DNA from: a virus
IMG/VR virus record: IMGVR_UViG_3300046836_000153
Location: 1-42,986 of that record
DNA: 42,986 nucleotides
Strand: one strand, 5' to 3'
A model generated the notes under the pieces. The model saw only the letters and a program-made list of their open reading frames with translations. It was not told the origin of the DNA and did not search any database. Below, one piece after another: positions 8,448 through 41,445 of the stretch (the first letter of the stretch is position 1; every line of letters begins with the position of its first letter). A program made the translations under genes and the position numbers.

Positions 8448-10589
8448 ATGTATCCGCCTCCCACCGTTGGGATGCCGCCGCAGATGGGTGGACAGGGTCC
8501 GATGGCCCCACCGGCCATCCCCGGTCTCGCGCAGGCGCAGCCGATGCCGACGCCGCTGCAACAGGCGCCTCCCGCCGTCCCGAAGATTGACGACACCCCC
8601 ATCCCGATGTCGGCGGACGACCTCGCGGCGTGGTGGGGACGTGTCGATCAAGCCGTGCGGGCGAGAAAAGACCGGGAAACCCGCTGGGAGACGCTCCTGC
8701 GGTCCTATCTCCCGACCACCGACCCCGACACGCTCAACAGCAACATCCACTTCCGCAACACCGAACAGAAGAAGGATACGATCTTCTACCGGAGCCCCGA
8801 TCTCATCCTGACCCCGCTCTTTCCCCTCCAGGATGTGACGATCGGTCCAGACGGCCAACAGCATACGGCCGAAGACATCGTCTCCATCAAGCAGGCCATC
8901 CTCAAGGCGAAGCTCGGGGCGGGTGGAGTCGACCTGAAGTGGCTCGCGAACGAACTCCTCTTTGACATCCTCCAGGTATCGGGGTGTGGTCCCTCCTATA
9001 TCGCCTACGAGTGCGACAAGGTGCCGGTCCCAGACCCGATGACGGGAGAACCGGTGCCGGTGACGATCCACGAAGAGTGGACGTGGCGGAAGTTCAGCAG
9101 CAAAAAACTGCTCATTCCGCACGACTGGAGGTCCCAGCGGTACGACGACGCCCCCTGGATGGGCTTCCAAGGCGTCAAGCCCTTGGCGCTCGCCAAACAG
9201 GAAGGGCTGGTTCCGTCGGATTTCGAGCCCAACGCCACGCGAGACGAGCACGTCTTCGACACCCCCCAAACCGGCGGGGTCATGCGCGAAGCCGGGACGG
9301 GACAACTCCTGGAGTTTGTGGAACTCTGGTACCGTCCGGCGGTCATCGACGGCTCCGTGACGCATCGGCAGCTTCAACGGCGTCTGGTGCTGGTTCGTGG
9401 CCTCGAGGCCCCCGCGAAGCACGTCAAGAGCCCCTATCAGAGCCTCGATCCCCAGACGGGACGCCTCACGGCGGACTCGATGGAGGGGTATCCGATTCAC
9501 GTGGTGACGCTCCGGGATCTGCCCGATGCGGCCTACGTGCCCTCGGATGCTCAGATGACCGATCCGCTGGTCCGGCAGATGAACCGCTGGGTGTCCCAGG
9601 ACATCAAGATGCGGGATGCGAACATCCCGAAGTTCCTCTACGACCATCGCATCAAGACCGCGCTCGAAATCCTCGCCTCCGGGGACGAAGGGGACGGCGC
9701 CGGCGTCGATGCCTCCATCTTGGCCGCCGGGATTGACCGCGTCATCGCCCAGTTGCCACGTCTCGAGAAGGCGATGTCCGACATCCAGGGACGGGCGGCG
9801 ATCGAACAGAAGATCAACGAGACACTCGCCTTGGGCCCGAACCAGAGCGGGACGACCAACGATAAGGTCTTGTCGGCGACCGAGATCAGCACCGCGCAGG
9901 CGACGAGTAATGTCAGAACGTCCGCCGAGCAGGATCGCTTCATGAGCCAGATCCTCCAAGGCGTGCGGAAGTACGACAGTCTCCTCCAGCGGTTCGCGAC
10001 CGAACAGGACTACGTCTCATGGGTTGGCAGGGACGGCAGTAAGAAGCTCACGATGTGGGATCAGACCCTCATCGCGGGTCGGTACGCCTACGACATCGCC
10101 CCAGATTCGCAGTTAAAGATTGACGCCGCGCAGAAACGCGCCCAAGATCTGCAGTACGCCAACTTGGTGAGCAACGCCCCGGAAACGAATCGCGCGGAAG
10201 TCCTCCGCGAAGCCGCGCGGGACTTTGGGAAAGATCCGTCTCGGATGGTCCAGCCCCCACCGCCGAAACAGCCAGAACCCCCGAAGATCTCGCTCTCCTT
10301 CACCGGGGCCGATATGAGCAATCCGGTCGTGCTGGACATCTTGACGAAGCAGGGCGTTCCGGTCGATCCCGCCGCGATCCAGACGATGCTCCAGATGACC
10401 CACGGCGGCATGGTCGCCCCCGGCGCCGGCACAGGGAACGTCATCGGCTCGCAGACACCGGGCATCGGCGGCGCCCCACCCCAGACGGGTCCACATCATG
10501 CCCTCGAAGGGACGCCCGGTGGGTTGGAGCCGGTGAACAAGCACGCCGGGGCGCTCACCGGCAACCGCGATGGACGGCCGACGCTATGA
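8448..10589 (+). CDS. Portal protein
   Basis: The 713-residue protein directly follows TerL, the normal portal position. It has a Pro/Met/Gln-rich N-terminus (1-45), a WWGRVDQAVRARKDRETRWE helix, a mixed core with ILQVSGCGPSYIAYECDKV, and a long helical stem/crown part (about 500-570). The C-terminus is Pro/Gly-rich. Size and order fit podovirus-type portals, which form a 12-subunit ring for DNA passage. Confidence rests on context and overall pattern rather than one motif. Confidence 0.85.
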   Translation: MYPPPTVGMPPQMGGQGPMAPPAIPGLAQAQPMPTPLQQAPPAVPKIDDTPIPMSADDLAAWWGRVDQAVRARKDRETRWETLLRSYLPTTDPDTLNSNIHFRNTEQKKDTIFYRSPDLILTPLFPLQDVTIGPDGQQHTAEDIVSIKQAILKAKLGAGGVDLKWLANELLFDILQVSGCGPSYIAYECDKVPVPDPMTGEPVPVTIHEEWTWRKFSSKKLLIPHDWRSQRYDDAPWMGFQGVKPLALAKQEGLVPSDFEPNATRDEHVFDTPQTGGVMREAGTGQLLEFVELWYRPAVIDGSVTHRQLQRRLVLVRGLEAPAKHVKSPYQSLDPQTGRLTADSMEGYPIHVVTLRDLPDAAYVPSDAQMTDPLVRQMNRWVSQDIKMRDANIPKFLYDHRIKTALEILASGDEGDGAGVDASILAAGIDRVIAQLPRLEKAMSDIQGRAAIEQKINETLALGPNQSGTTNDKVLSATEISTAQATSNVRTSAEQDRFMSQILQGVRKYDSLLQRFATEQDYVSWVGRDGSKKLTMWDQTLIAGRYAYDIAPDSQLKIDAAQKRAQDLQYANLVSNAPETNRAEVLREAARDFGKDPSRMVQPPPPKQPEPPKISLSFTGADMSNPVVLDILTKQGVPVDPAAIQTMLQMTHGGMVAPGAGTGNVIGSQTPGIGGAPPQTGPHHALEGTPGGLEPVNKHAGALTGNRDGRPTL

Positions 10590-16132: not shown

Positions 16133-16321
16133 ATGGCGGACCCCAAGCTCGGTCTCAGCGTGCGTCTCTGGAATGGCACCGTCATGGACGTGGATCGTCC
16201 GACCAAGCCCGAACTCGGACATCCGCTGGAGGTCCACATCGGCGGGACGCCCTACGTCCATGTGTCGAACGATCCTGATGGCACCTGGGTCTATGCGCCG
16301 CGTGACGTGAAGCATCGATGA
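16133..16321 (+). CDS. Hypothetical protein, 62 aa
   Basis: The small beta-rich protein (ADPKLGLSVRLWNGTVMDV...) has no cysteines or membrane segment. It is coupled to the adaptor gene by an ATGA overlap at 16318, which suggests a function in connector or tail assembly; this is positional inference only. Confidence 0.6.
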   Translation: MADPKLGLSVRLWNGTVMDVDRPTKPELGHPLEVHIGGTPYVHVSNDPDGTWVYAPRDVKHR

Positions 16322-17295
16322 CACTCGCCTCGATTCTCGCGGGGTGTTACGAGCGGTTAGGCTACTCCGCGTCTCCGCCCACAGCGGTGGTGACGCGGTT
16401 GACCGACCACGCCAACGAAGTGCATCGGGCGCTCCTCTCGCTCCCAGGCATGGAAATGCTGCGGGACGACACGACGCCCGTCACCTCGGTCGCGAATGCC
16501 CCGCGCATCGGTCTCCCGCTGAACGTCGCCCGCATCAAGCGCATCGTGGACCGTACGAACAACACGCTCCTGCGCGAAGTCACTATGACGGAACTCGCAC
16601 GTCGCGATCCCGGCCTGACGAGCACGGGGAATCCGTGGGCGTTCGCACGGAGTGGGTTTCAGGCGGTGCAGGCGCAACCGGCCGCCGCGACGGGCGTGTG
16701 GGCCGTCTCGAGCAGCGCGTCTGATACCGCTGGTCCCACAGTGAGCCTCACGGCTATTCGCACGGGCGGCTTCCTGCATCAGCCCTCAGCGCAGGCGTTG
16801 ACGGGAACAGCCCGTGTGCAGGTTGGCGGTCAGACCGACTACATCGAGATTGACAAATTTGCGCTCAGTGCGGCGTGTGTGGGAGACGTGAGTCTCTACG
16901 ATGCGGTGACGGTCGGGAACCTGCTCGCGGTGATCCCGAAAGGGCAGACGAATGCCCGCTACCTCGGGATTCACTGGTTCCCGGTTCCGGCGACGGCGTT
17001 GACGTACTACGTGGACTACACGCGCACGACGCCGGATATGACGACGACGGACGAACCGCTGTTGCCGCAGGACTTCCACGATCTGATCGGGATCGGGATT
17101 CGGATGAAGGACTACGAGTATCGCGGCGATGCGCGCTTCCAGGCGGCGGCCGGGGAGTACATCGCGCGGACGCAACAGTTTCGAGACTTCGTGCAAACCG
17201 ATGGCGCCTTCCTGCTGTCGTTGCGGAAGAAACCGCAGCGATGGTCCCAGTTTGGCGGACAGTATCCCGCCGACACCGTGACTTGGAGTTGGTGA
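16318..17295 (+). CDS. Head-tail adaptor protein (putative)
   Basis: The 325-residue protein begins with helices (TLASILAGCYERLGY and VTRLTDHANEVHRALLSLPGM), followed by strands with PRIGLPLNVARIKRIVDR and later YVDYTRTTPDMTTTDEPLLPQDFHDLIGIGIR. Helical N-terminal bundle plus a C-terminal segment with a conserved-looking 'LP..FHD.I..G' stretch is the arrangement of adaptor proteins (tail tubular A or P22 gp4-like) that bind the portal. Position upstream of tail genes agrees. Confidence 0.65.
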   Translation: MTLASILAGCYERLGYSASPPTAVVTRLTDHANEVHRALLSLPGMEMLRDDTTPVTSVANAPRIGLPLNVARIKRIVDRTNNTLLREVTMTELARRDPGLTSTGNPWAFARSGFQAVQAQPAAATGVWAVSSSASDTAGPTVSLTAIRTGGFLHQPSAQALTGTARVQVGGQTDYIEIDKFALSAACVGDVSLYDAVTVGNLLAVIPKGQTNARYLGIHWFPVPATALTYYVDYTRTTPDMTTTDEPLLPQDFHDLIGIGIRMKDYEYRGDARFQAAAGEYIARTQQFRDFVQTDGAFLLSLRKKPQRWSQFGGQYPADTVTWSW

Positions 17296-17296
17296 G

Positions 17297-19015
17297 ATGC
17301 GTGGACTAATCATGAATGCAACCGTCAAACAGATGCTCCTCATCGGGGGACTGATCGCAGCGGGCTGTGCGTCGATGCCGGTGACGCTCGCGGCCCAGAA
17401 TCCCTTCACGCTTTTGTCGGTCGTCGCCGCCACCAAAAACGTCACGCTGACCACGACGAGCGCCGACGACGATGGCCGGATGAGTCTCGCGGGCTTTTCC
17501 GGGGTCGCCGTCCAGTTGAGTGGCACGTGGACTGGCACCGTCACGTTTGAAGTGAGCATCGACGGCACGACCTATACCGCCCTCAACATGACGCCTCCGA
17601 ACTCCACAGCCGCGGTCACGACGGCGACGGCGAACGGGCAGTGGATGGGGAGTGCGGTCGGCTTCCGCTATTTCCGCGCCCGGTTCTCGACCCCATCGAG
17701 CGGGAGTCCAGTCGTGGGGATTCGGGAAACGTTAGGGGGTGGATCGGGTTCAGGCGGAGGCGGCGGCGGGTCCGTCACGATCAACGATCCGAATACGACC
17801 AGTCAGAAAGCAGCGGTGAACGCCAGCGGCCAGCTCTCCATCACCTGTGCGAACTGTTCGGGATCTGGTGCGTCTTTTGTGGATAAGGCCGCCTTTACGG
17901 CGGGCACCGACTCGGGCGCGCCAGCGATGGGCCTCTTCGAGACCTCACCCTCCACCGTGACGACTGGACACAGTTCGGTCCTGGCGATGACGAACGACCG
18001 GCATCTCTTCGTCAACATCGGCAAGGTCGGCGCCGCCACGATCACCCTCGGATCGAAGACGGGGGCGAACTCGTTCCCGGTCGTCATCGCCTCAGACCAG
18101 ACGTTACCACTTCCGTCAGGTGCGTCGACCGCGGTGGCCGATGGCGGGACGTTCACGGCGAGCACCACCACGGCGAACCCGATTGCGGGATTCTACGAGT
18201 TTTCTCCCACGACGTGTACAACCGGAAAAGCGTGCGCCATCGGACTCACCACGAACCGAGAAGCGAAGGTCTCCCTGACGACGGCGCTCCCTGCGGGCAC
18301 GAACGGGATCGGCAAGCTCACGGCGAACGGCGGCGTGATTATCGGAGATGTCAACATCAACGGTGTCTCACCCAACAGCGGCCGTGTGCCAGTACTCGCG
18401 GACATTAATAACGGCAGCACCACCGTGACGGAGGCGGCGACCCTCACGGCAGGCCAGTCCAGTGTGGCCCTGACCAACTCCGTGCTCTTTGGCTACGACG
18501 GTTCGACGGATAGCCGTGTCGCGGCGAAGAGTTCGACGCCGGCTAGCAATGCGGTCGGACTCGTGGTGCGTCCCTTGGGATGGACTGATGGCACCAACAC
18601 GGCGCCGACGATGGATGCGGCGGTACGGGCGGGCTATATGGTCCCCACGGCGTCGGCCTCTGGCGGCGGCGCGTCGAACTATTCCGCCCTCCAGACCAGT
18701 GGTGCCGTGTTCACGGCGCAGATCAAAGGGGCCGCTGGGCAAGTGTATGAGATTGATTGCACCAGTACGGATGCGGCGGCGATGTTTGTGCGGCTCTATG
18801 ACCAGACGGGTGCCCCGGCGAGTACCGACGGCGCCAACATCGTGTGGCGCGGAACGATTCCCGGCGCCGCGACGGGGGCGGGGTTCGTCAAGACCTTCAC
18901 CATCGGGCGCGTCTTTGCGACTGGCGTGGGTATTCGCATTAGTGGCGCCGTGGCCGACAACGATACGACGGTGTTGAGTGCGAACAAAGTCATGTGCAAT
19001 GTGGGGTACAAATAA
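17297..19015 (+). CDS. Late protein with N-terminal signal peptide and Gly-rich hinge, 572 aa
   Basis: The N-terminus (KQMLLIGGLIAAGCASMPVTLAAQNP, residues 11-36) has a hydrophobic core and an AxA-like cleavage site near LAA/Q, a Sec-type signal. Residues about 40-140 are beta-sandwich-like. A Gly/Ser hinge (about 147-161) precedes a long Thr/Ser/Ala/Gly-rich beta region with repeated SxGxxxVxA spacing, and a final domain (about 475-572) resembles a fibre tip. It could be a tail appendage, but signal peptides are abnormal on virion proteins. ATG at 17297 is used; M6 (17312) is an alternative start. Confidence 0.65.
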   Translation: MRGLIMNATVKQMLLIGGLIAAGCASMPVTLAAQNPFTLLSVVAATKNVTLTTTSADDDGRMSLAGFSGVAVQLSGTWTGTVTFEVSIDGTTYTALNMTPPNSTAAVTTATANGQWMGSAVGFRYFRARFSTPSSGSPVVGIRETLGGGSGSGGGGGGSVTINDPNTTSQKAAVNASGQLSITCANCSGSGASFVDKAAFTAGTDSGAPAMGLFETSPSTVTTGHSSVLAMTNDRHLFVNIGKVGAATITLGSKTGANSFPVVIASDQTLPLPSGASTAVADGGTFTASTTTANPIAGFYEFSPTTCTTGKACAIGLTTNREAKVSLTTALPAGTNGIGKLTANGGVIIGDVNINGVSPNSGRVPVLADINNGSTTVTEAATLTAGQSSVALTNSVLFGYDGSTDSRVAAKSSTPASNAVGLVVRPLGWTDGTNTAPTMDAAVRAGYMVPTASASGGGASNYSALQTSGAVFTAQIKGAAGQVYEIDCTSTDAAAMFVRLYDQTGAPASTDGANIVWRGTIPGAATGAGFVKTFTIGRVFATGVGIRISGAVADNDTTVLSANKVMCNVGYK

Positions 19016-19714
19016 ATGGCCTTGCAGGGACCACGACGCCTGCTCGCGGTCCTGGGCCTGTGCCTCAGCGCCGTGCTGATCCTCCATGCCACCATTCCGG
19101 TGAGTGATAACTTTGCGGCGTATAGCGGAGGGACCGATCTGAATAGCCCGCCGTGGGTGAAAACGCAAGGGACGTGGGCGGCCGATGGTGGCAACGCGAC
19201 CCACTGTTTCTCGGTGGCGGCCTTTTGTTCGGCCTATTGGGACACCGCGACGGATACGTTCACGGCGAATCAACATGCGGATGTCAAGCTCTATTCGCAA
19301 TTAACCGGACAGCCTGGCCCCGCCGTTCGGATGGCGGGCACAGGAGGCACGACGCGGGGCATGTGGTTTGACATCGATCCAAATCCTGGTCATGCCAATA
19401 ATGGGCTGTGGGTCTATACCGGGGGCACCAACGTCGGATCGCTCTTGGTGGCGTGCTCCATTAATGCGGCGAGTGGCGACACGGCACGGATCTCGGTGAC
19501 GGGTTCGACCTACACCCTGAGCGTGGATGTGGGATCGACCGGATCGTTTACCACCTGTGGGTCTGTGTCTGACGGCACATATGCCTCTGGGCAGCCAGGG
19601 ATGATTGAATATGACACGTCGGGCTATTTGGTGTCCTTCGCGGCGGATAATGTGAGTGCAGGGGGGACCACGGTACGTCGCCTGATGCTCCTCGGTGTCG
19701 GCGGCCACTTGTGA
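19016..19714 (+). CDS. Late protein with signal peptide, lectin/LamG-like sandwich, 232 aa
   Basis: The ATG follows the previous stop directly. Residues 8-27 (RLLAVLGLCLSAVLILHATI) form a signal peptide with likely cleavage after HA. The mature part begins with VSDNFAAYSGGTDLNSPPWVKTQGTW, a typical start of concanavalin-like sandwich domains in secreted proteins, and has two cysteine pairs that fit disulfides in an exported protein. Carbohydrate binding is plausible (inference). Confidence 0.65.
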   Translation: MALQGPRRLLAVLGLCLSAVLILHATIPVSDNFAAYSGGTDLNSPPWVKTQGTWAADGGNATHCFSVAAFCSAYWDTATDTFTANQHADVKLYSQLTGQPGPAVRMAGTGGTTRGMWFDIDPNPGHANNGLWVYTGGTNVGSLLVACSINAASGDTARISVTGSTYTLSVDVGSTGSFTTCGSVSDGTYASGQPGMIEYDTSGYLVSFAADNVSAGGTTVRRLMLLGVGGHL

Positions 19715-21615
19715 TCCGACTAGTGGCTGCATTGGCGGCGGCACTCGTGGCGCTGGCGATTCCTCAACGCGCCGCCCTCTTTGGGCGCACGGTTCCCCAA
19801 CAGCAAGTGGCGGTGGGGGCGCTCTTTCAGGTCACGAACCTGCATTACGACTGCGGCTTTCTGGTGCCGCATGGGACGGATGCGAATGGGGTAAGTTACG
19901 GCCAAGCCGGATTTGGTGCGATTGCCTATTCGCCCTCTGGGAATAGCGGCCAAGGTTCGCTCTATGTGAGTGGGGATGATAACCAGCGGAAGGTGGGTGA
20001 ACTCTCTATTCCGACGTGTTCGGGCAGTGCGGGCAATATCGCGACGTGGCCCACCGCGACGATCCTCTCGCCCCAGTATGATCCCGGCGAAGGGCACATC
20101 GGCCCCTGTATCTATAATCAGGGGTATCTCGGGCACTGCGCGACTGGGACGGTGCCCTCGAATCTCGATTACAAGCTCGGCGGCATGCTCGTCTATCCCT
20201 TCGACGGCTCCAGCACGCGGTATCTCTACCTGCAAGACTACAGTTACTACGACGCGGGGAACGTGCAGCAATTCACCGCCTCTCGACGCGGGCTCTCCTT
20301 GAGCGGCACGAGTTGGGACGGGATGTATCAGCTCTCGCCGTTCTCGCCCCCCTACGAAAAGTACGTCGATGGGACACTGAGTGAGGTGGATCCAGCCTAC
20401 ACGTCCGCGCTCGGAGGCACGATCATTTCGGAACATACGGGGGCGCCCATCGTGAGTATTGCCTCCCAAGGGTTCGCCGCGACAATTTGGAATCCGCTCT
20501 CCAGTTGGGGGCAACCCATCAGCTCACAACTCCTGCTCGGCTATGACGGAGACGGCGGCACCAATCCGCATCGCATGGCGGTGGCGCTGCAAGCGGCGGG
20601 CTACGCCTATCCGGCCGGCGAAGTCACCTCCGCGAATACGTGGTGGAACTTGACCATGCATGTGCATGGCACGATGATGCCCACCGGCTACCGCTCGCAT
20701 CTGTACTTCGGGCGCATCGGGACGACCTACTGTTACGGCAATGGTGACGCCTATCCCCCATTGGTGAAATCATTTCTGGCGGGATCCGATCCGGCGGGTG
20801 GCAATTCCGGCAACAACGCCTCCAGTAACGGCGCGGGCACTGTGATCACGCTCCCAGGCGCGGATCTCTCGTACGTCGCCACGAATCACTACGGGTTGTG
20901 GCTCAACACGGGCGCGGCTAACGGTACCACCCATGCCATTAGCGCGACGGCGAATAGTGGCCTCTCGAATGCCCAAGTCACGATTACGCCAGCGGTGGCC
21001 GCGGGCCTCTCGGGGGTGGACTACGCGCTGGGAGTCATCGGGATTGATGCCTCCACGAATAGTGCGGGTGACACCATCACGGTGCCGAATGCGGTGCTGG
21101 ACCGTGTGCAGGGGGCAGAGATTCACCTTCTCAACCAAACCACGCCCAACTTCGATGATTGCCCAGGCTGGTGCAATGGGGGCTTGCGGAGTCACCCCGG
21201 TGTCGGTGCGGTGCTCAGCGTGGCGAACTCCGGCACCGGGTCGGCCACGGTCGGCTCTGGCGGCTTCCCCGGCAACCTCACCAACCAGCCCTACATGATG
21301 GGCGACATCAACTGCGACGACCCGCAGGACCGCACGTCGAAGGGCAATCACGGCTATCCGTATGCGAACTATCTCAACGCCTACGACCTGAATGATTTCC
21401 TCGCGGTGAAGGCGGGGAGCAAGCACGCCTACGAACCGATCCCCTATCTCCACGCGGACATCACGTCGCTGCTCAACACGGCGATGGGCACGGGCGGGGC
21501 GAGCGGGGGCGATCTCTTAGGGCTCGCGCATGACCGGACGCACAAAACGATCTACATCGCGATGGTGTTTATCGACGGGACGTATCCCGTCATCTTGAAG
21601 TTTCACTATGACTAG
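19711..21615 (+). CDS. Large late protein with signal peptide, 634 aa
   Basis: A GTG start overlaps the previous stop. Residues 1-17 (MIRLVAALAAALVALAI) are a hydrophobic signal-like segment. The rest is rich in Tyr, Gly and Ser, beta-stranded, with repeated YLYLQDYSYY and LYVSGDDNQ-type blades that suggest a propeller-like fold in the first 300 residues, then a Thr/Ser/Gly-rich segment and a C-terminal domain with many His and Asp residues. No catalytic signature is recognised. It is the third consecutive late gene with an export-type N-terminus. Confidence 0.65.
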   Translation: MIRLVAALAAALVALAIPQRAALFGRTVPQQQVAVGALFQVTNLHYDCGFLVPHGTDANGVSYGQAGFGAIAYSPSGNSGQGSLYVSGDDNQRKVGELSIPTCSGSAGNIATWPTATILSPQYDPGEGHIGPCIYNQGYLGHCATGTVPSNLDYKLGGMLVYPFDGSSTRYLYLQDYSYYDAGNVQQFTASRRGLSLSGTSWDGMYQLSPFSPPYEKYVDGTLSEVDPAYTSALGGTIISEHTGAPIVSIASQGFAATIWNPLSSWGQPISSQLLLGYDGDGGTNPHRMAVALQAAGYAYPAGEVTSANTWWNLTMHVHGTMMPTGYRSHLYFGRIGTTYCYGNGDAYPPLVKSFLAGSDPAGGNSGNNASSNGAGTVITLPGADLSYVATNHYGLWLNTGAANGTTHAISATANSGLSNAQVTITPAVAAGLSGVDYALGVIGIDASTNSAGDTITVPNAVLDRVQGAEIHLLNQTTPNFDDCPGWCNGGLRSHPGVGAVLSVANSGTGSATVGSGGFPGNLTNQPYMMGDINCDDPQDRTSKGNHGYPYANYLNAYDLNDFLAVKAGSKHAYEPIPYLHADITSLLNTAMGTGGASGGDLLGLAHDRTHKTIYIAMVFIDGTYPVILKFHYD

Positions 21616-21642
21616 TGTCTATGGACGGACGCCAGCCATGAC

Positions 21643-21855
21643 TCAGCGCAGGACGGCCCAGCACGCCAGCGCGATGATGATCGTCGCCATACCGACGCAG
21701 AAGGCGATGAATTCCCAGTCGCGCCCTTCGGGTCGTGCGAAGACGGTGAACCCGGTGCGCTTCGAGGCGGGACGGAGCGTGGATCCCAGCGCCATTCCTC
21801 GGAAGCGGCGGAAGTCGGCGCGGGTGAGTTCGGGTGTGTTGGGCTTGTGTGTCAT
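21643..21855 (-). CDS. Antisense membrane protein, putative moron, 70 aa
   Basis: On the strand opposite to all surrounding genes, the protein MTHKPNTPELTRADFRRF... is basic in its first 45 residues and ends with one membrane segment (EFIAFCVGMATIIIALACWAVL, residues 48-69). It fills almost exactly the gap between two late genes and has its own promoter. No Shine-Dalgarno sequence precedes the ATG. Small membrane morons often cause superinfection exclusion or alter the host envelope; that function is inference. Confidence 0.7.
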   Translation of the reverse strand: MTHKPNTPELTRADFRRFRGMALGSTLRPASKRTGFTVFARPEGRDWEFIAFCVGMATIIIALACWAVLR

Positions 21856-21862
21856 AAACGTG

Positions 21863-21891
21863 AACATAACATAAACAATGGCGTCTGTCAT
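21863..21891 (-). promoter_or_regulatory. Promoter of the antisense membrane gene
   Basis: On the minus strand ATGACA (21891-21886) and TATGTT (21868-21863) are 17 bp apart. TATGTT is followed by 7 bp and the ATG at 21855, so transcription would begin at or next to the start codon. Confidence 0.65.
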
Positions 21892-23851
21892 CTGGGCGAA
21901 AAACCGGGGCCGCAATGGCTGGGACAGTCTCGTGGATGTCGGACTGGACGAATCCGTCGAATCCTTGAATGTCCACCTGTACAACGACGGGCTTGGCACG
22001 CGGCGGGGTGGCTCGACGCTCATCACGACAACGGGCGTGACGGCGCCCATCTATAGTGCCTTCGAGTTCATCCCCGGCCAAGACGAGACGGTTGCGGAGT
22101 TGTTCGTATTCGACAATTCCTCGCCGGTGAAGATTCTGCGCTGCGCTGGTGGCTCGTCGTTCACGAATCTGACGCTCGTGGACAACTGCAACGGCTCGCA
22201 GTGGATTTCGAGTGCGGCGGCGCTGAACGGGAAGCTCTATCTCGCCTATGCCACGGGCGTGAACCGGCTCCATGTGTTCGATCCTGGCGGCTCGACCACG
22301 ACCGTGCGCAGAGCCGGGTTGAAACCACCCGCTGCCGCAACCGTCGCGAACAGCGTCGGTGGTGGCGCCTACGCCGCGACCCTTCGCTACTACAAAGTGG
22401 CGTATACCGTCGTCCGCAGCGGCGTCGTGGTCTATCGGTCGGAACTTTCGCCGGTCGTGAGTTTCACGCCCGATGGCTCCCATGCGAGCGCGGTCGTGAC
22501 GAAACCCGCGTCGATCAGCGAGAGTGAGACGAACTGGGAAGTCTACGGATCGCCCGATGGGGTCTTGTTCTATGCGCTCGCGGCCGATCTCGCTGGGGCC
22601 TTGAGTGCGTCCATTGTGGTCGGCACGACAACCTACGCGGATTCGACGGTCGTCTCCACCTACGCGAATTACACCGCCCAAGAGGCCATCGGCTCGAATA
22701 CGCCCTTCCCGTCCGTGAAGTCGCTCGGGACGGATGGCTCTCGGCTCTACGGTCTCGGGGTGTGGGAAACGAGTGCGGGAGATTCCCTCGCCCCGAAAGC
22801 GGGCCGCTTCTACTTCGGTCCGGTGCTGGACTCGTCCGATGTCAACGACGACGAACGCATCAACAATACGGCGAGTCTGCGTGGATGGATTGACCTCGCG
22901 CGGAACGCGAACGCCGCCGACCGAGGGGTCTCGCCCCATCCGGTGAACAACGTCATCTACGCGTTTCAGTCGTCGGGGGTCTTTGGGCTCTATCCGACCG
23001 ATTCCGCCGTGACCCCGTATCGGCGCGTCGTGCTCTCGACCGCGATTGGCAATCTCAGCCAGCGCATGATCGTGATGGGTCACGACCGGAACGGCGCGCC
23101 CTGTTGCTACTTCTGGGATCCGGTCAAGGGTCCGTACGTCGTCGGGGGCGTCGATGGGTTACGGTGGGTTGGGAAAGATCTCGCGGACATCGCCGCACGC
23201 GTGAATCGTCTGCCTGATGGGACGCTCTGTGGTGGGTTCTATCAGGATCGGCAGCAACTGATCTTCGGACTCGCGGTGGACGGCAGCAACGAACCGAATC
23301 TGATGGCGGTGTGCGATGTCACCAAGCAGCAACCCGACGAGACCGGCGACCTCCGGGGCGGCTGGACCCTCTATAGTGGGGACTTCGCGACGGCTCGCGC
23401 CATCGTGCTGTTCAGCAACACGCTGAGCGCCACACGGTCCCGTGTCAAGGTGCCCTACGTCAGCTCGGTCAGTGCGGGCACGTTCCAGAAGTACGACGAG
23501 AGCGTCAACCAGGATAACAGCGTCTCGTTCCAAGCCTACGTGACGAGTGGCCCGCGCTTTGTCGAGAACGCCCATGTCTCCCTCGTGCAGCCCTACGTCA
23601 TGGCTGACGCCGCCAGTGCGGTGACGATTCGGCATCGTCTCATCCGCAACGCAGGCGCTGAGACGCGCGACAGCACGCTCACGCTCACGGCGGAAGGGTC
23701 AGAAACCATCGTGCTGAAGAAGGCGGAAGATGCCGCGATGAATGACGCGTGGACACTCCAGGTCCAACTTGGTGATGCGGCTGCGGCGAACGTCCACTGG
23801 TTGATTCATCAGTGGCGCTGTCCGAACGTCAAAGCCGGGAGTGCGCTCTAA
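21878..23851 (+). CDS. Tail hub/tail tubular B-like protein
   Basis: The 657-residue protein starts ASVIWAKNRGRNGWDSLVDVGLDE and has the 'S-x-N-V-x-L-Y-N-D-G-x-x-T-R-x-G' pattern of phage nozzle and stabilisation proteins. It is mostly beta-stranded with repeated WxxYGSPDG and GLGVWE-type blades, fitting a propeller. In podoviruses such proteins close the tail tube (T7 gp12 or P22 gp10 role). Location before the fibre and ejection genes agrees. No Shine-Dalgarno sequence is visible before the ATG. Confidence 0.65.
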   Translation: MASVIWAKNRGRNGWDSLVDVGLDESVESLNVHLYNDGLGTRRGGSTLITTTGVTAPIYSAFEFIPGQDETVAELFVFDNSSPVKILRCAGGSSFTNLTLVDNCNGSQWISSAAALNGKLYLAYATGVNRLHVFDPGGSTTTVRRAGLKPPAAATVANSVGGGAYAATLRYYKVAYTVVRSGVVVYRSELSPVVSFTPDGSHASAVVTKPASISESETNWEVYGSPDGVLFYALAADLAGALSASIVVGTTTYADSTVVSTYANYTAQEAIGSNTPFPSVKSLGTDGSRLYGLGVWETSAGDSLAPKAGRFYFGPVLDSSDVNDDERINNTASLRGWIDLARNANAADRGVSPHPVNNVIYAFQSSGVFGLYPTDSAVTPYRRVVLSTAIGNLSQRMIVMGHDRNGAPCCYFWDPVKGPYVVGGVDGLRWVGKDLADIAARVNRLPDGTLCGGFYQDRQQLIFGLAVDGSNEPNLMAVCDVTKQQPDETGDLRGGWTLYSGDFATARAIVLFSNTLSATRSRVKVPYVSSVSAGTFQKYDESVNQDNSVSFQAYVTSGPRFVENAHVSLVQPYVMADAASAVTIRHRLIRNAGAETRDSTLTLTAEGSETIVLKKAEDAAMNDAWTLQVQLGDAAAANVHWLIHQWRCPNVKAGSAL

Positions 23852-24816
23852 TGCCGTTCCCTGCGTTCAACAGCGTGCAGGAGTTCACCGCGATGGCGGG
23901 GAACCAGATCCAGCAGTTCACGGCGTATCTGACGGGGTTTCTGCAATTCCAGCACAAGGATGATGGGAGTCACGGGGCAGTCACGGCGGATTCCGTCGCC
24001 ATCACGGGCGCCCTCACGGTAGGCGGAGCCACTACTGGCACAGGCGCCGCAACCTACAACGCCAACGTGAAGGCGAAGGATGTCGAGATTGGCGATGTCG
24101 GGTCCGCGAATCCCACCGATGGCGTACTCGGGCCGGGGATGCGGATTTACGATACGACCGGCACGACACCCGCGTATGACCTCGCCAGCAGTCAGGTGAT
24201 CAGCAGCAACTATCAAGCCTTGACGCTTATGGAGCGCGGCGGTGGGTTCGTCCCTCTTCAGATCGTCCGTGACATCTCGGGATCGGCCTACTGGATGGGA
24301 CCGGGGAAAGATTCTCCCGTGACGCATCCGGTCGATCTCGGCACGGCGTTCTACGCGAGCGGCGCACGCGGGAAGTACCAGAACGCCTATCTCAGTGGGT
24401 CCGTGTTCGAACTCGGACGTGGAGTGGGACAAGGGCTGTGGCAGGCGTATACGCCGACCCTGACGAACCTCACACTCGGGAACGGCACCAAGGGTGGGAC
24501 TTGGGCGCAAGTCGGGAACGTGACCTGCGTGGAGGTCAACATCGTCTTCGGATCGACGTCGTCCATCACTGGGAACGTCATCGTCTCGCTCCCGACGTCG
24601 AACACGAATATGACCTCCTCGCAGATTCTCGGGGATGTCACATACTTTGATTCGAGCGCCGGCCAGTTGTATCAGGGGCAGGCGCATCACAGTTCGGCCA
24701 CGGAAGCCGTGTTGCGATCGGCTGGTTCGCCATTGGTGCTGATTTCGTCCACCGTCCCGATGACGTGGGCGACGAGTGATGAAATCTGGCTGCGGTGTTG
24801 TTACCGCAACGTCTAA
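23851..24816 (+). CDS. Tail fibre or spike protein
   Basis: The ATG at 23851 overlaps the previous stop (TAATG). The 321-residue protein has an N-terminal helix (VQEFTAMAGNQIQQFTAYLTGFLQF), a collar with VTADSVAITGALTVGGATTGT repeats, and a C-terminal domain beginning WQAYTPTLTNLTLGNGTKGG, a motif widely found at the tips of phage tail fibres. It probably contacts the host surface as a trimer. Confidence 0.75.
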   Translation: MPFPAFNSVQEFTAMAGNQIQQFTAYLTGFLQFQHKDDGSHGAVTADSVAITGALTVGGATTGTGAATYNANVKAKDVEIGDVGSANPTDGVLGPGMRIYDTTGTTPAYDLASSQVISSNYQALTLMERGGGFVPLQIVRDISGSAYWMGPGKDSPVTHPVDLGTAFYASGARGKYQNAYLSGSVFELGRGVGQGLWQAYTPTLTNLTLGNGTKGGTWAQVGNVTCVEVNIVFGSTSSITGNVIVSLPTSNTNMTSSQILGDVTYFDSSAGQLYQGQAHHSSATEAVLRSAGSPLVLISSTVPMTWATSDEIWLRCCYRNV

Positions 24817-34296: not shown

Positions 34297-34577
34297 CACG
34301 GAAGTCCTTCCTCGCGCTCTGTGGGTCTGTCCTCGCGGCGCCGTTCGTGACCAAGAAGGCACAAAGAAACGTCGAAATCCTAGCTGTTCGGACGATTCCT
34401 AATCCACCCGATCCACCCCGGTTCAAGAACATCGTGCTGGATCGTGACTGTCCCAAGAACATGATGTACATCATGAATACGGAACAGACGGTCTTGTACC
34501 AGCGGATCCTGAACAGCGAAGGCGAACGTCTCTATGGCATCGGCTCGTGGGACACCAACAGAGGAGACTCCAATTGA
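34293..34577 (+). CDS. Probable exported small protein, 94 aa
   Basis: AAGGAGG precedes the ATG at 34293. The first residues (MTRKSFLALCGSVLAAPFVTKKAQ) have a basic n-region and a hydrophobic core with an APF cleavage-like site. The rest contains a Pro-rich segment (TIPNPPDPPRF) and a strand-rich C-terminus. With its lipoprotein neighbour it may form an envelope-active pair. Family unknown. Confidence 0.55.
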   Translation: MTRKSFLALCGSVLAAPFVTKKAQRNVEILAVRTIPNPPDPPRFKNIVLDRDCPKNMMYIMNTEQTVLYQRILNSEGERLYGIGSWDTNRGDSN

Positions 34578-34954
34578 TACGCAGAAACCGCCGCACTCTC
34601 GTCGTGCTTGCGCTCGCGCTGATCGTCGGCTGCGCCAAGGCGCCCCCCACGCTTTCGCCTGTGGGGAAAACTGCCTGGCAAGGGATTCAGGCGATCCGCG
34701 TCCTCGATACGATCCGCGACGTCGCCATCGCGGCCAACGCCCAGACCCCTCCGGTGCTCTCGACCGACACGACCAGAAAGGTCGTGACGTTCCATAAGAG
34801 CGCCGTCTCGGTGATTGGGTCGGCTCCTGGCGGCTGGAAGCCCATTGTGACGACGTCCATTGCCCAGCTCCAGAAGGACATCCCCGCGGCGGAGTGGACG
34901 AAGATTGCCCCCTACGTGGCCTTGCTCTCGACCATCATTCAGGAGATCCCATGA
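34574..34954 (+). CDS. Probable lipoprotein, 126 aa
   Basis: A TTG start at 34574 overlaps the preceding TGA (TTGA) and follows GAGGAG. The N-terminus MIRRNRRTLVVLALALIVGC has a basic region, hydrophobic core and a lipobox ending in Cys20, so a lipid anchor is likely. The mature part is helical (AWQGIQAIRVLDTIRDVAIAANA, then PYVALLSTIIQEIP). An outer-membrane spanin-like role is possible in a lysis cassette, but the protein is long for Rz1. Confidence 0.65.
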   Translation: MIRRNRRTLVVLALALIVGCAKAPPTLSPVGKTAWQGIQAIRVLDTIRDVAIAANAQTPPVLSTDTTRKVVTFHKSAVSVIGSAPGGWKPIVTTSIAQLQKDIPAAEWTKIAPYVALLSTIIQEIP

Positions 34955-40699: not shown

Positions 40700-41002
40700 A
40701 TGGGGAACCGGACCTCGTTCACGGCGGCGGTCAGGGCGTATCTCACGGCCCGTCCTGGGGTGTGGGTACATGCGGGCGTGCTGCAGGAGATCGGGGGCCG
40801 GTTCGCGTCCAGAACGCGTATTTCTGACGCGAGGAAGCAGTTGGAGGCGGAGGGGCTGGGGACGATTGCGAACCAGCTCCAGCCGGTGTGGTTTGACGGG
40901 AAGATTGTGCGGAGGGACTCGTTTTACCGGTTTGAGCCGAAGGTGGTTGAGGCGCCCAAGGAACAGGTTGGGCACGATTTGAATGAATGGGGATTGCGAT
41001 GA
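40700..41002 (+). CDS. Winged-helix-like DNA-binding protein (putative), 100 aa
   Basis: The protein contains FTAAVRAYLTARPGVWVHAGVLQEIGG, SRTRISDARKQLEAEGLGTIANQL and YRFEP, in the order helix, helix, recognition helix, beta wing. The RISDARKQL segment resembles the recognition helix of small phage winged-helix proteins. It ends with an overlap to the next gene. Assigned by pattern. Confidence 0.55.
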   Translation: MGNRTSFTAAVRAYLTARPGVWVHAGVLQEIGGRFASRTRISDARKQLEAEGLGTIANQLQPVWFDGKIVRRDSFYRFEPKVVEAPKEQVGHDLNEWGLR

Positions 41003-41445
41003 AATCAGGACTGCTCACGGGATGCCTCGTCACGGCCCTCAGCGCCTCGCTGGGCGCCCAGACGCCCCAAGCCCTGGCTACGATTGCGGCGTTCGGCCAA
41101 CACGTCTGGCTGGACGTGGCGCGGCAGGATCCCGGCATTCTCACGTTCGGGGGCTGGGCGTTTGAGTGCTCGAGCGGGACGCAGGCCATCACGGAACTCC
41201 TGATTGACGGGACGGTGGCCACGAATGTGGTCTTGTTCCCGGCGGCGCGGGAGGATGTCAAATTGTGGGCGATGACGTACAGCGTCTGTGATTTTGCCCA
41301 TACGCCGTACTACTCGGGGGTGAATGCATGGCTGTCTGTCGCGGACTCCCATCTGGCGGTGGGACCGCATGCTGCGCAGTTACGGATTCGGAATACGGCG
41401 GGGGTGATGACGCTGTCGCCGCCGGTGGGGTTCGACGTGAAATGA
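40999..41445 (+). CDS. Exported Ig-like protein, 148 aa
   Basis: ATG at 40999 overlaps the preceding stop. Residues 1-20 (MKSGLLTGCLVTALSASLGA) are a Sec signal peptide with cleavage SLGA/Q. The mature part contains GWAFECSSGTQAITELLIDG and GPHAAQLRIRNTAG, an Ig/fibronectin-like sandwich as found in surface proteins of environmental bacteria. A secreted protein in the early operon may act at the cell surface, for example in exclusion of other phages (inference). Confidence 0.65.
   Translation: MKSGLLTGCLVTALSASLGAQTPQALATIAAFGQHVWLDVARQDPGILTFGGWAFECSSGTQAITELLIDGTVATNVVLFPAAREDVKLWAMTYSVCDFAHTPYYSGVNAWLSVADSHLAVGPHAAQLRIRNTAGVMTLSPPVGFDVK

Follow-up and report, generated by a model that had tools for sequence, protein, structure and literature searches.

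A replaceable gene cassette in a tailed phage encodes proteins with predicted Sec signal peptides and may supply virion appendages from outside the cytoplasm

The stretch of DNA analyzed here (the window) comprises an entire IMG/VR virus record (42,986 bases, 61% GC). In its head-tail morphogenesis block lie three consecutive genes, P1, P2 and P3, whose products have N-termini with the features of Sec type I signal peptides (SPs), for which cleavage is predicted. We consider the chances about evenly balanced that these genes form a swappable virion-appendage cassette, whose products would be routed through Sec and joined, at or after lysis, to particles made in the cytoplasm.

Three consecutive genes begin with predicted signal peptides

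The initial annotation had placed three consecutive late genes with Sec-like signals where appendage genes are expected, and our gene calls agree with it in coordinates, sizes and signals. P1 (17297..19015, + strand, 572 aa) begins with the predicted SP MRGLIMNATVKQMLLIGGLIAAGCASMPVTLA/A (17297..17392, + strand; here and below a slash marks the predicted cleavage site, which in P1 is approximate), followed by a beta domain, a Cys-paired repeat region and a C-terminal beta-sandwich, with 6 cysteines in the mature protein; a low-confidence AF2 model has an N-terminal helix at residues 2-18. P2 (19016..19714, + strand, 232 aa) has the predicted SP MALQGPRRLLAVLGLCLSAVLILHA/TIP (19016..19090, + strand), a beta-rich body with 4 mature cysteines and the C-terminal tag RRLMLLGVGGHL. 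P3 (19711..21615, + strand, 634 aa), whose GTG start overlaps the P2 stop, begins with the SP-like sequence MIRLVAALAAALVALA/IPQRA and has 8 mature cysteines. The signals were called with a home-made scorer, a simple method that combines n-region charge, the h-region and a von Heijne-type c-region, and the trio scored 12.6, 6.3 and 10.7 respectively. The 18 E. coli SPs from which the scorer was built all scored at least 9.7 with the correct cleavage site, which is a measure of self-consistency rather than an independent test.

The N-termini of the trio are the most hydrophobic among the called genes of the morphogenesis block (best 11-residue Kyte-Doolittle means of 2.30, 2.84 and 2.81 for P1, P2 and P3, whereas the flanking called structural genes do not exceed 1.75). 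Among the 39 window genes scored, just one other was comparable to the trio, with a score of 7.2. This gene (40987-41445, + strand, 152 aa) lies outside the cassette, and belongs to the phage backbone since its counterpart in the close relative L003 (148 aa; G009) also has an SP. The background frequency of SPs was 2/119 in four comparison phages (genes of 150 aa or longer) and 3.4% (45/1320) in 176 viral loci (genes of 100 aa or longer). Under the gene-calling rule used for those 176 loci none contained a run of three or more SP genes, and about 0.002 runs of three would be expected by chance in a contig of the window's size.

The P1 ATG is preceded by GGAG; the P2 ATG directly follows the P1 stop and has only GGGG upstream; and the P3 GTG lies within the P2 stop overlap (GTGA) with no Shine-Dalgarno sequence, so that its signal would be lost if later GTGs were used. 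The P1 and P2 starts are acceptable and the SP-bearing start of P3 is the weakest of the three, and because this GTG has no ribosome site the P3 signal is rated as probable. The P3 start favors an account in which the signals are artefacts of start-codon choice or of hydrophobic N-termini in high-GC DNA, as does a P22-like coat protein in another contig (G003) that was falsely called SP-bearing through a wrong start. We regard this account as very improbable, given that many homologous SPs are preceded by strong ribosome sites, that the pattern recurs in independent phages and that it is associated with cysteine content (see below).

A Pfam scan of P1-P3 matched no S74, tail-fibre, spike or other domain, and homology searches detected no relatives of P3. 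A fold search was precluded by the poor quality of the AF2 models, which reached a pLDDT of 33 for P3 alone and of 41 for P1 with nine sequences.

Close relatives replace the cassette between conserved flanks

The trio occupies most of a variable cassette of ∼4.5 kb (17297..21846) that has no DNA match in two relatives, L002 and L003, whose capsid proteins share 91-96% aa identity with that of the window. In blastn comparisons the flanks, which are 81-90% identical, end at 17,286-17,296 and resume at 21,847-21,878, with the gap between them unmatched. The left border is a head-tail adaptor gene (16318..17295, + strand; SU10_adaptor, Pfam PF24175, E 1.7e-8) whose product is 97-98% identical in aa sequence to its L002 and L003 counterparts, and the right border is a 657-aa gene (21878..23851, + strand) with about 87-94% aa identity, which is hub-like or stabilization-like by position. 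The trio had been described as lying between adaptor and tail-hub genes: the upstream adaptor is borne out by the Pfam match, but the 657-aa gene had no match in our family searches and the label "tail hub" is therefore positional. The region thus has a place in the head-tail block next to the adaptor, and varies between close relatives while its flanks are conserved. Between P3 and the 657-aa gene there is also a 70-aa frame on the minus strand (21643-21855) with a C-terminal hydrophobic segment, for which no match was found in L002 or L003.

Both relatives replace the cassette cleanly with unrelated or signal-less genes, none of which has an SP according to our scorer. The first replacement genes of L002 (342 aa) and L003 (239 aa) are homologous to each other; an HMM of C-terminal domains taken from P1-like proteins with SPs matches the L003 protein at 4e-6, and the L002 protein has a weak BLAST match (E 0.001) to the C-terminus of P1. 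The slot therefore holds related proteins with or without a signal. The N-terminal ∼100 aa of the two replacement proteins, which are conserved between them and would be a natural docking domain, are absent from P1. Homology between P3 and a 540-aa gene of L003 had been suspected by eye and was not supported by hhalign.

Downstream of the cassette, a 334-aa protein (23812-24816, + strand) has an N-terminal ∼60 aa in common with L002 and L003, differs from them in the remainder and has no SP. This pattern is usual for a signal-less tail fibre, and the protein may be another receptor binder of the phage; because this separate fibre-like gene is present, the trio need not be the receptor binder of the window phage.

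Runs of signal-peptide genes recur in other phage lineages

The same trio had been proposed as something to look for in related phages. As such it is replaced in L002 and L003, but at least six other contigs, which differ in capsid or adaptor family, have runs of SP genes at the corresponding place: the major capsid protein of the window matches phrog_9953, G003 has a P22-like coat protein, and G004 and W01 have SU10 adaptors. Since these contigs differ in their capsid and adaptor families, the SP-cassette trait crosses lineages.

In tblastn searches of phage records, P1 domains matched proteins of both uncultured and cultured phages. P1 shares a repeat or N-terminal domain with its phage homologues, the P1-like "glycoprotein repeat" proteins, and hhalign gave 94.8% for P1 against a 291-aa protein of S-SRP01. 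The initial annotation had also offered acquisition of fibres from secreted host proteins as an origin; this is unsupported for P1, whose domains match proteins of other phages. A scan for the P1-like family with a cysteine-independent DNA pattern, together with an HMM, identified SP-bearing members in four contigs (L122, L128, L187 and L190); two more came from other sources, i.e. the LLGVG tag pattern (L105) and a companion scan in which cysteine was selected for (L204). Further SP genes, including PHROG tail proteins, are adjacent to the P1-like genes in these contigs. Other SP-bearing proteins match a PHROG tail spike (phrog_2234) and PHROG tail proteins (phrog_18522, phrog_17312 and phrog_8763).

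One example is MW202554.1 (L007), a podovirus genome from Manatee Spring, which has four consecutive SP genes encoding a P1 homologue that begins MLNRLAKFCVLIGLLAAPVYA/QTP, a 197-aa protein, a Laminin_G_3 lectin (8e-14) and a GH28/pectate-lyase tail-spike-like protein. In addition, a collar fibre of this phage (PF07484, 1.7e-23), adjoining the gene in the hub position, begins MIVLVLLFLLLSISSADA/G after a strong ribosome site. Two of the four consecutive genes differ from the GenBank annotation: the gene for the 197-aa protein (L007 8450-9043) is missing from it, and the annotated start of the polygalacturonase (L007 9831-11429) at 9870 is too far downstream, as a GTG at 9831 following AGGAG adds an SP. 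Among 50,697 GenBank phage records, MW202554.1, itself an uncultured genome, was the only one in which the SP-type family turned up, and looking for cultured, named phages with SP-bearing fibres of this kind yielded no other. That the sole GenBank record of the SP-type family is an uncultured genome would explain why the trait has gone unnoticed so far.

The tag of P2 (RRLMLLGVG) is shared by some phage proteins that have an SP and others that lack one. The lectin of MW202554.1 has the similar C-terminus RMLLLGVGP, and L101, a contig retrieved with the LLGVG tag, carries five SP genes within its final 7 kb, and the product of one of them ends RRLMLLGVGEP. More generally, a tag close to RRLLLLGVG (19679-19711 in the window; also in L007, L122, L101, L057, L061 and L003) ends beta-rich phage proteins that are otherwise different and may or may not have an SP. 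The most extreme cassette among those examined is that of a 32-kb contig (L330/L331; IMG/VR 3300021560_000047) with at least eight SP genes, encoding proteins of up to 1255 aa and 26 cysteines that include TIG and Big_7 Ig-like domains and a pectate-lyase-like spike. The notion that the N-terminus of the G004 fibre is a common attachment domain was not confirmed and was set aside.

Cysteine content fits folding outside the cytoplasm

If the SPs are functional, then the mature proteins would be expected to be adapted to an oxidizing space. In seven SP-cassette contigs, cysteine made up 1.57% of SP-bearing proteins of at least 150 aa and 0.80% of the others (p 5e-5), although this and the other p-values given here are optimistic because the sampled proteins are related to one another and the scorer is simple. 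After removal of the SP, even and odd cysteine counts stood at 29:3, as against 52:42 for signal-less proteins (Fisher p 1.6e-4); when restricted to proteins with at least four cysteines, the ratios were 24:2 and 37:13, a marginal difference (p 0.05). One of the three odd counts in the SP group comes from a P22-type coat protein whose start was miscalled. The mature counts in L101, which was examined later, were 7, 6, 4 and 2. Within the P1-like family, close cysteine pairs (CDSGC, CVSGC, CANC) were present in 7/7 SP-bearing and 2/12 SP-less members (p 7e-4), and in the cysteine-blind sample in 4/4 and 1/10 (p 0.005). These data fit genuine export of the SP-bearing cassette proteins by Sec and their folding with disulfide bonds beyond the cytoplasm. 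The predicted export is well supported at the level of sequence, and export and oxidative folding have the best support among the steps of the route proposed below.

The same data bear on whether the N-termini could instead be uncleaved anchors, holding the proteins to the inner membrane or the particle or inserting into the membrane of the next host, rather than export signals. Hydrophobic segments alone could suffice for this, the cleavage site of P1 is ambiguous and its GLIAAGC resembles a degenerate lipobox. However, several relatives have textbook AxA-type sites (e.g. PVYA/Q, PVWA/G and TSAWA/A), the counts are mostly even once the SP is removed and the bodies of the proteins are Cys-paired, and we consider anchoring improbable.

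A possible second site of appendage assembly

In the textbook view, tailed-phage assembly is a cytoplasmic process, and we know of no tailed-phage assembly step that takes place beyond the inner membrane. A periplasmic assembly route was one of the options raised by the initial annotation, rightly in our view. On the route that we propose, the trio proteins would be exported by Sec and lose their signals, as the SP and cysteine statistics suggest, and would then fold with disulfide bonds in the oxidizing space beyond the inner membrane, as suggested by their paired and mostly even cysteines. When the holin opens the inner membrane, the exported proteins could meet the DNA-filled particles made in the cytoplasm and attach to their neck or tail. 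What the phage would gain is a fast-changing receptor-contact module whose lectins, spikes or fibres are rigid and stabilized by disulfides. Late attachment from solution is feasible, since P22 tailspikes can be joined to heads in vitro.

Membership of the virion is the step at which the evidence divides. We infer it from the position of the genes, from the swap with signal-less homologues and from the collar, tail-spike and tail-protein families found behind SPs in relatives. The absence from P1 of the N-terminal region conserved in its slot partners, presumed to dock them, and the separate fibre-like gene at 23812-24816 speak against it. Alternatively, the proteins may leave the cytoplasm by Sec without ever becoming part of the particle, being late periplasmic, surface or released products (lectins, polysaccharide-active enzymes, matrix or decoys) that share the appendage locus. 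The SPs and paired cysteines, the missing docking region of P1 and the presence in cassettes elsewhere of LamG lectin, GH28, TIG or Big_7 Ig-like domains, kinds of domain that secreted bacterial proteins have as well, would all fit such products. Nevertheless, SPs are present on a PF07484 collar fibre and on PHROG tail proteins, homologous domains without a signal occupy the same slot in close relatives, and the genes lie inside the head-tail morphogenesis block; we therefore judge the non-virion alternative to be somewhat unlikely. The broader form of the appendage reading, that a class of tailed dsDNA phages exports fibre, spike or lectin proteins by Sec, disulfide-bonds them and docks them at lysis, with the cassette moving between lineages, we put slightly below an even chance. 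The occurrence of a similar swappable, disulfide-rich cassette in several unrelated viruses suggests that in some tailed viruses the surface components may be produced in one compartment of the cell and the remainder of the particle in another.

No account of SPs on tailed-phage fibres was found in the literature searched, and to our knowledge the tail fibres that have been studied to date lack cleavable signals and fold in the cytoplasm. The tail-fibre or spike cassettes of podoviruses and siphoviruses (PF07484 collar, PF12708/GH28 spikes) resemble the present one in genomic position, in their swap-in/swap-out evolution and in the domain types of its SP-bearing relatives; unlike them, most cassette members here have SPs and paired cysteines. 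The coat and adsorption proteins of filamentous phages have Sec signals and periplasmic disulfides, but those virions are extruded through membranes, whereas the window comes from a tailed phage whose dsDNA genome carries terminase and capsid genes. The mosaic adhesive trimer fibres of Bdellovibrio are phage-fibre-like, have a signal peptide and are exported before use (PMC10769870). They are made by a predatory bacterium and not by a phage, and their likeness to the trio is one of description. The T4 antiholin RI is a phage lysis protein with a signal (PMC8385771). Like other lysis proteins (SAR endolysins and spanins) it uses Sec during infection, but these are lysis regulators, whereas the trio are large beta-rich proteins encoded in a morphogenesis block.

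If appendages are indeed exported and added at lysis, tailed phages would have a second assembly compartment, the presence of disulfide-stabilized lectins and enzymes on the particle would be explained, and host SecA, signal peptidase and Dsb would limit particle infectivity. Runs of SP-bearing genes with even cysteine counts in a morphogenesis block could then serve as an annotation rule for the receptor-contact genes of uncultured phages. Should the proteins not belong to the virion, they would represent a late secreted surface programme of the phage, likewise undescribed in the literature searched.

With a view to host assignment, we searched bacterial genomes for the Cys-repeat DNA pattern, and none of the 112 places found encodes a family member according to the HMM. 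Elsewhere in the window (34547-34954, + strand) an in-frame start yields MIRRNRRTLVVLALALIVGC, a lipobox-like signal that is likewise present in L003; the product is possibly an outer-membrane lipoprotein such as a spanin, which hints at a Gram-negative host.
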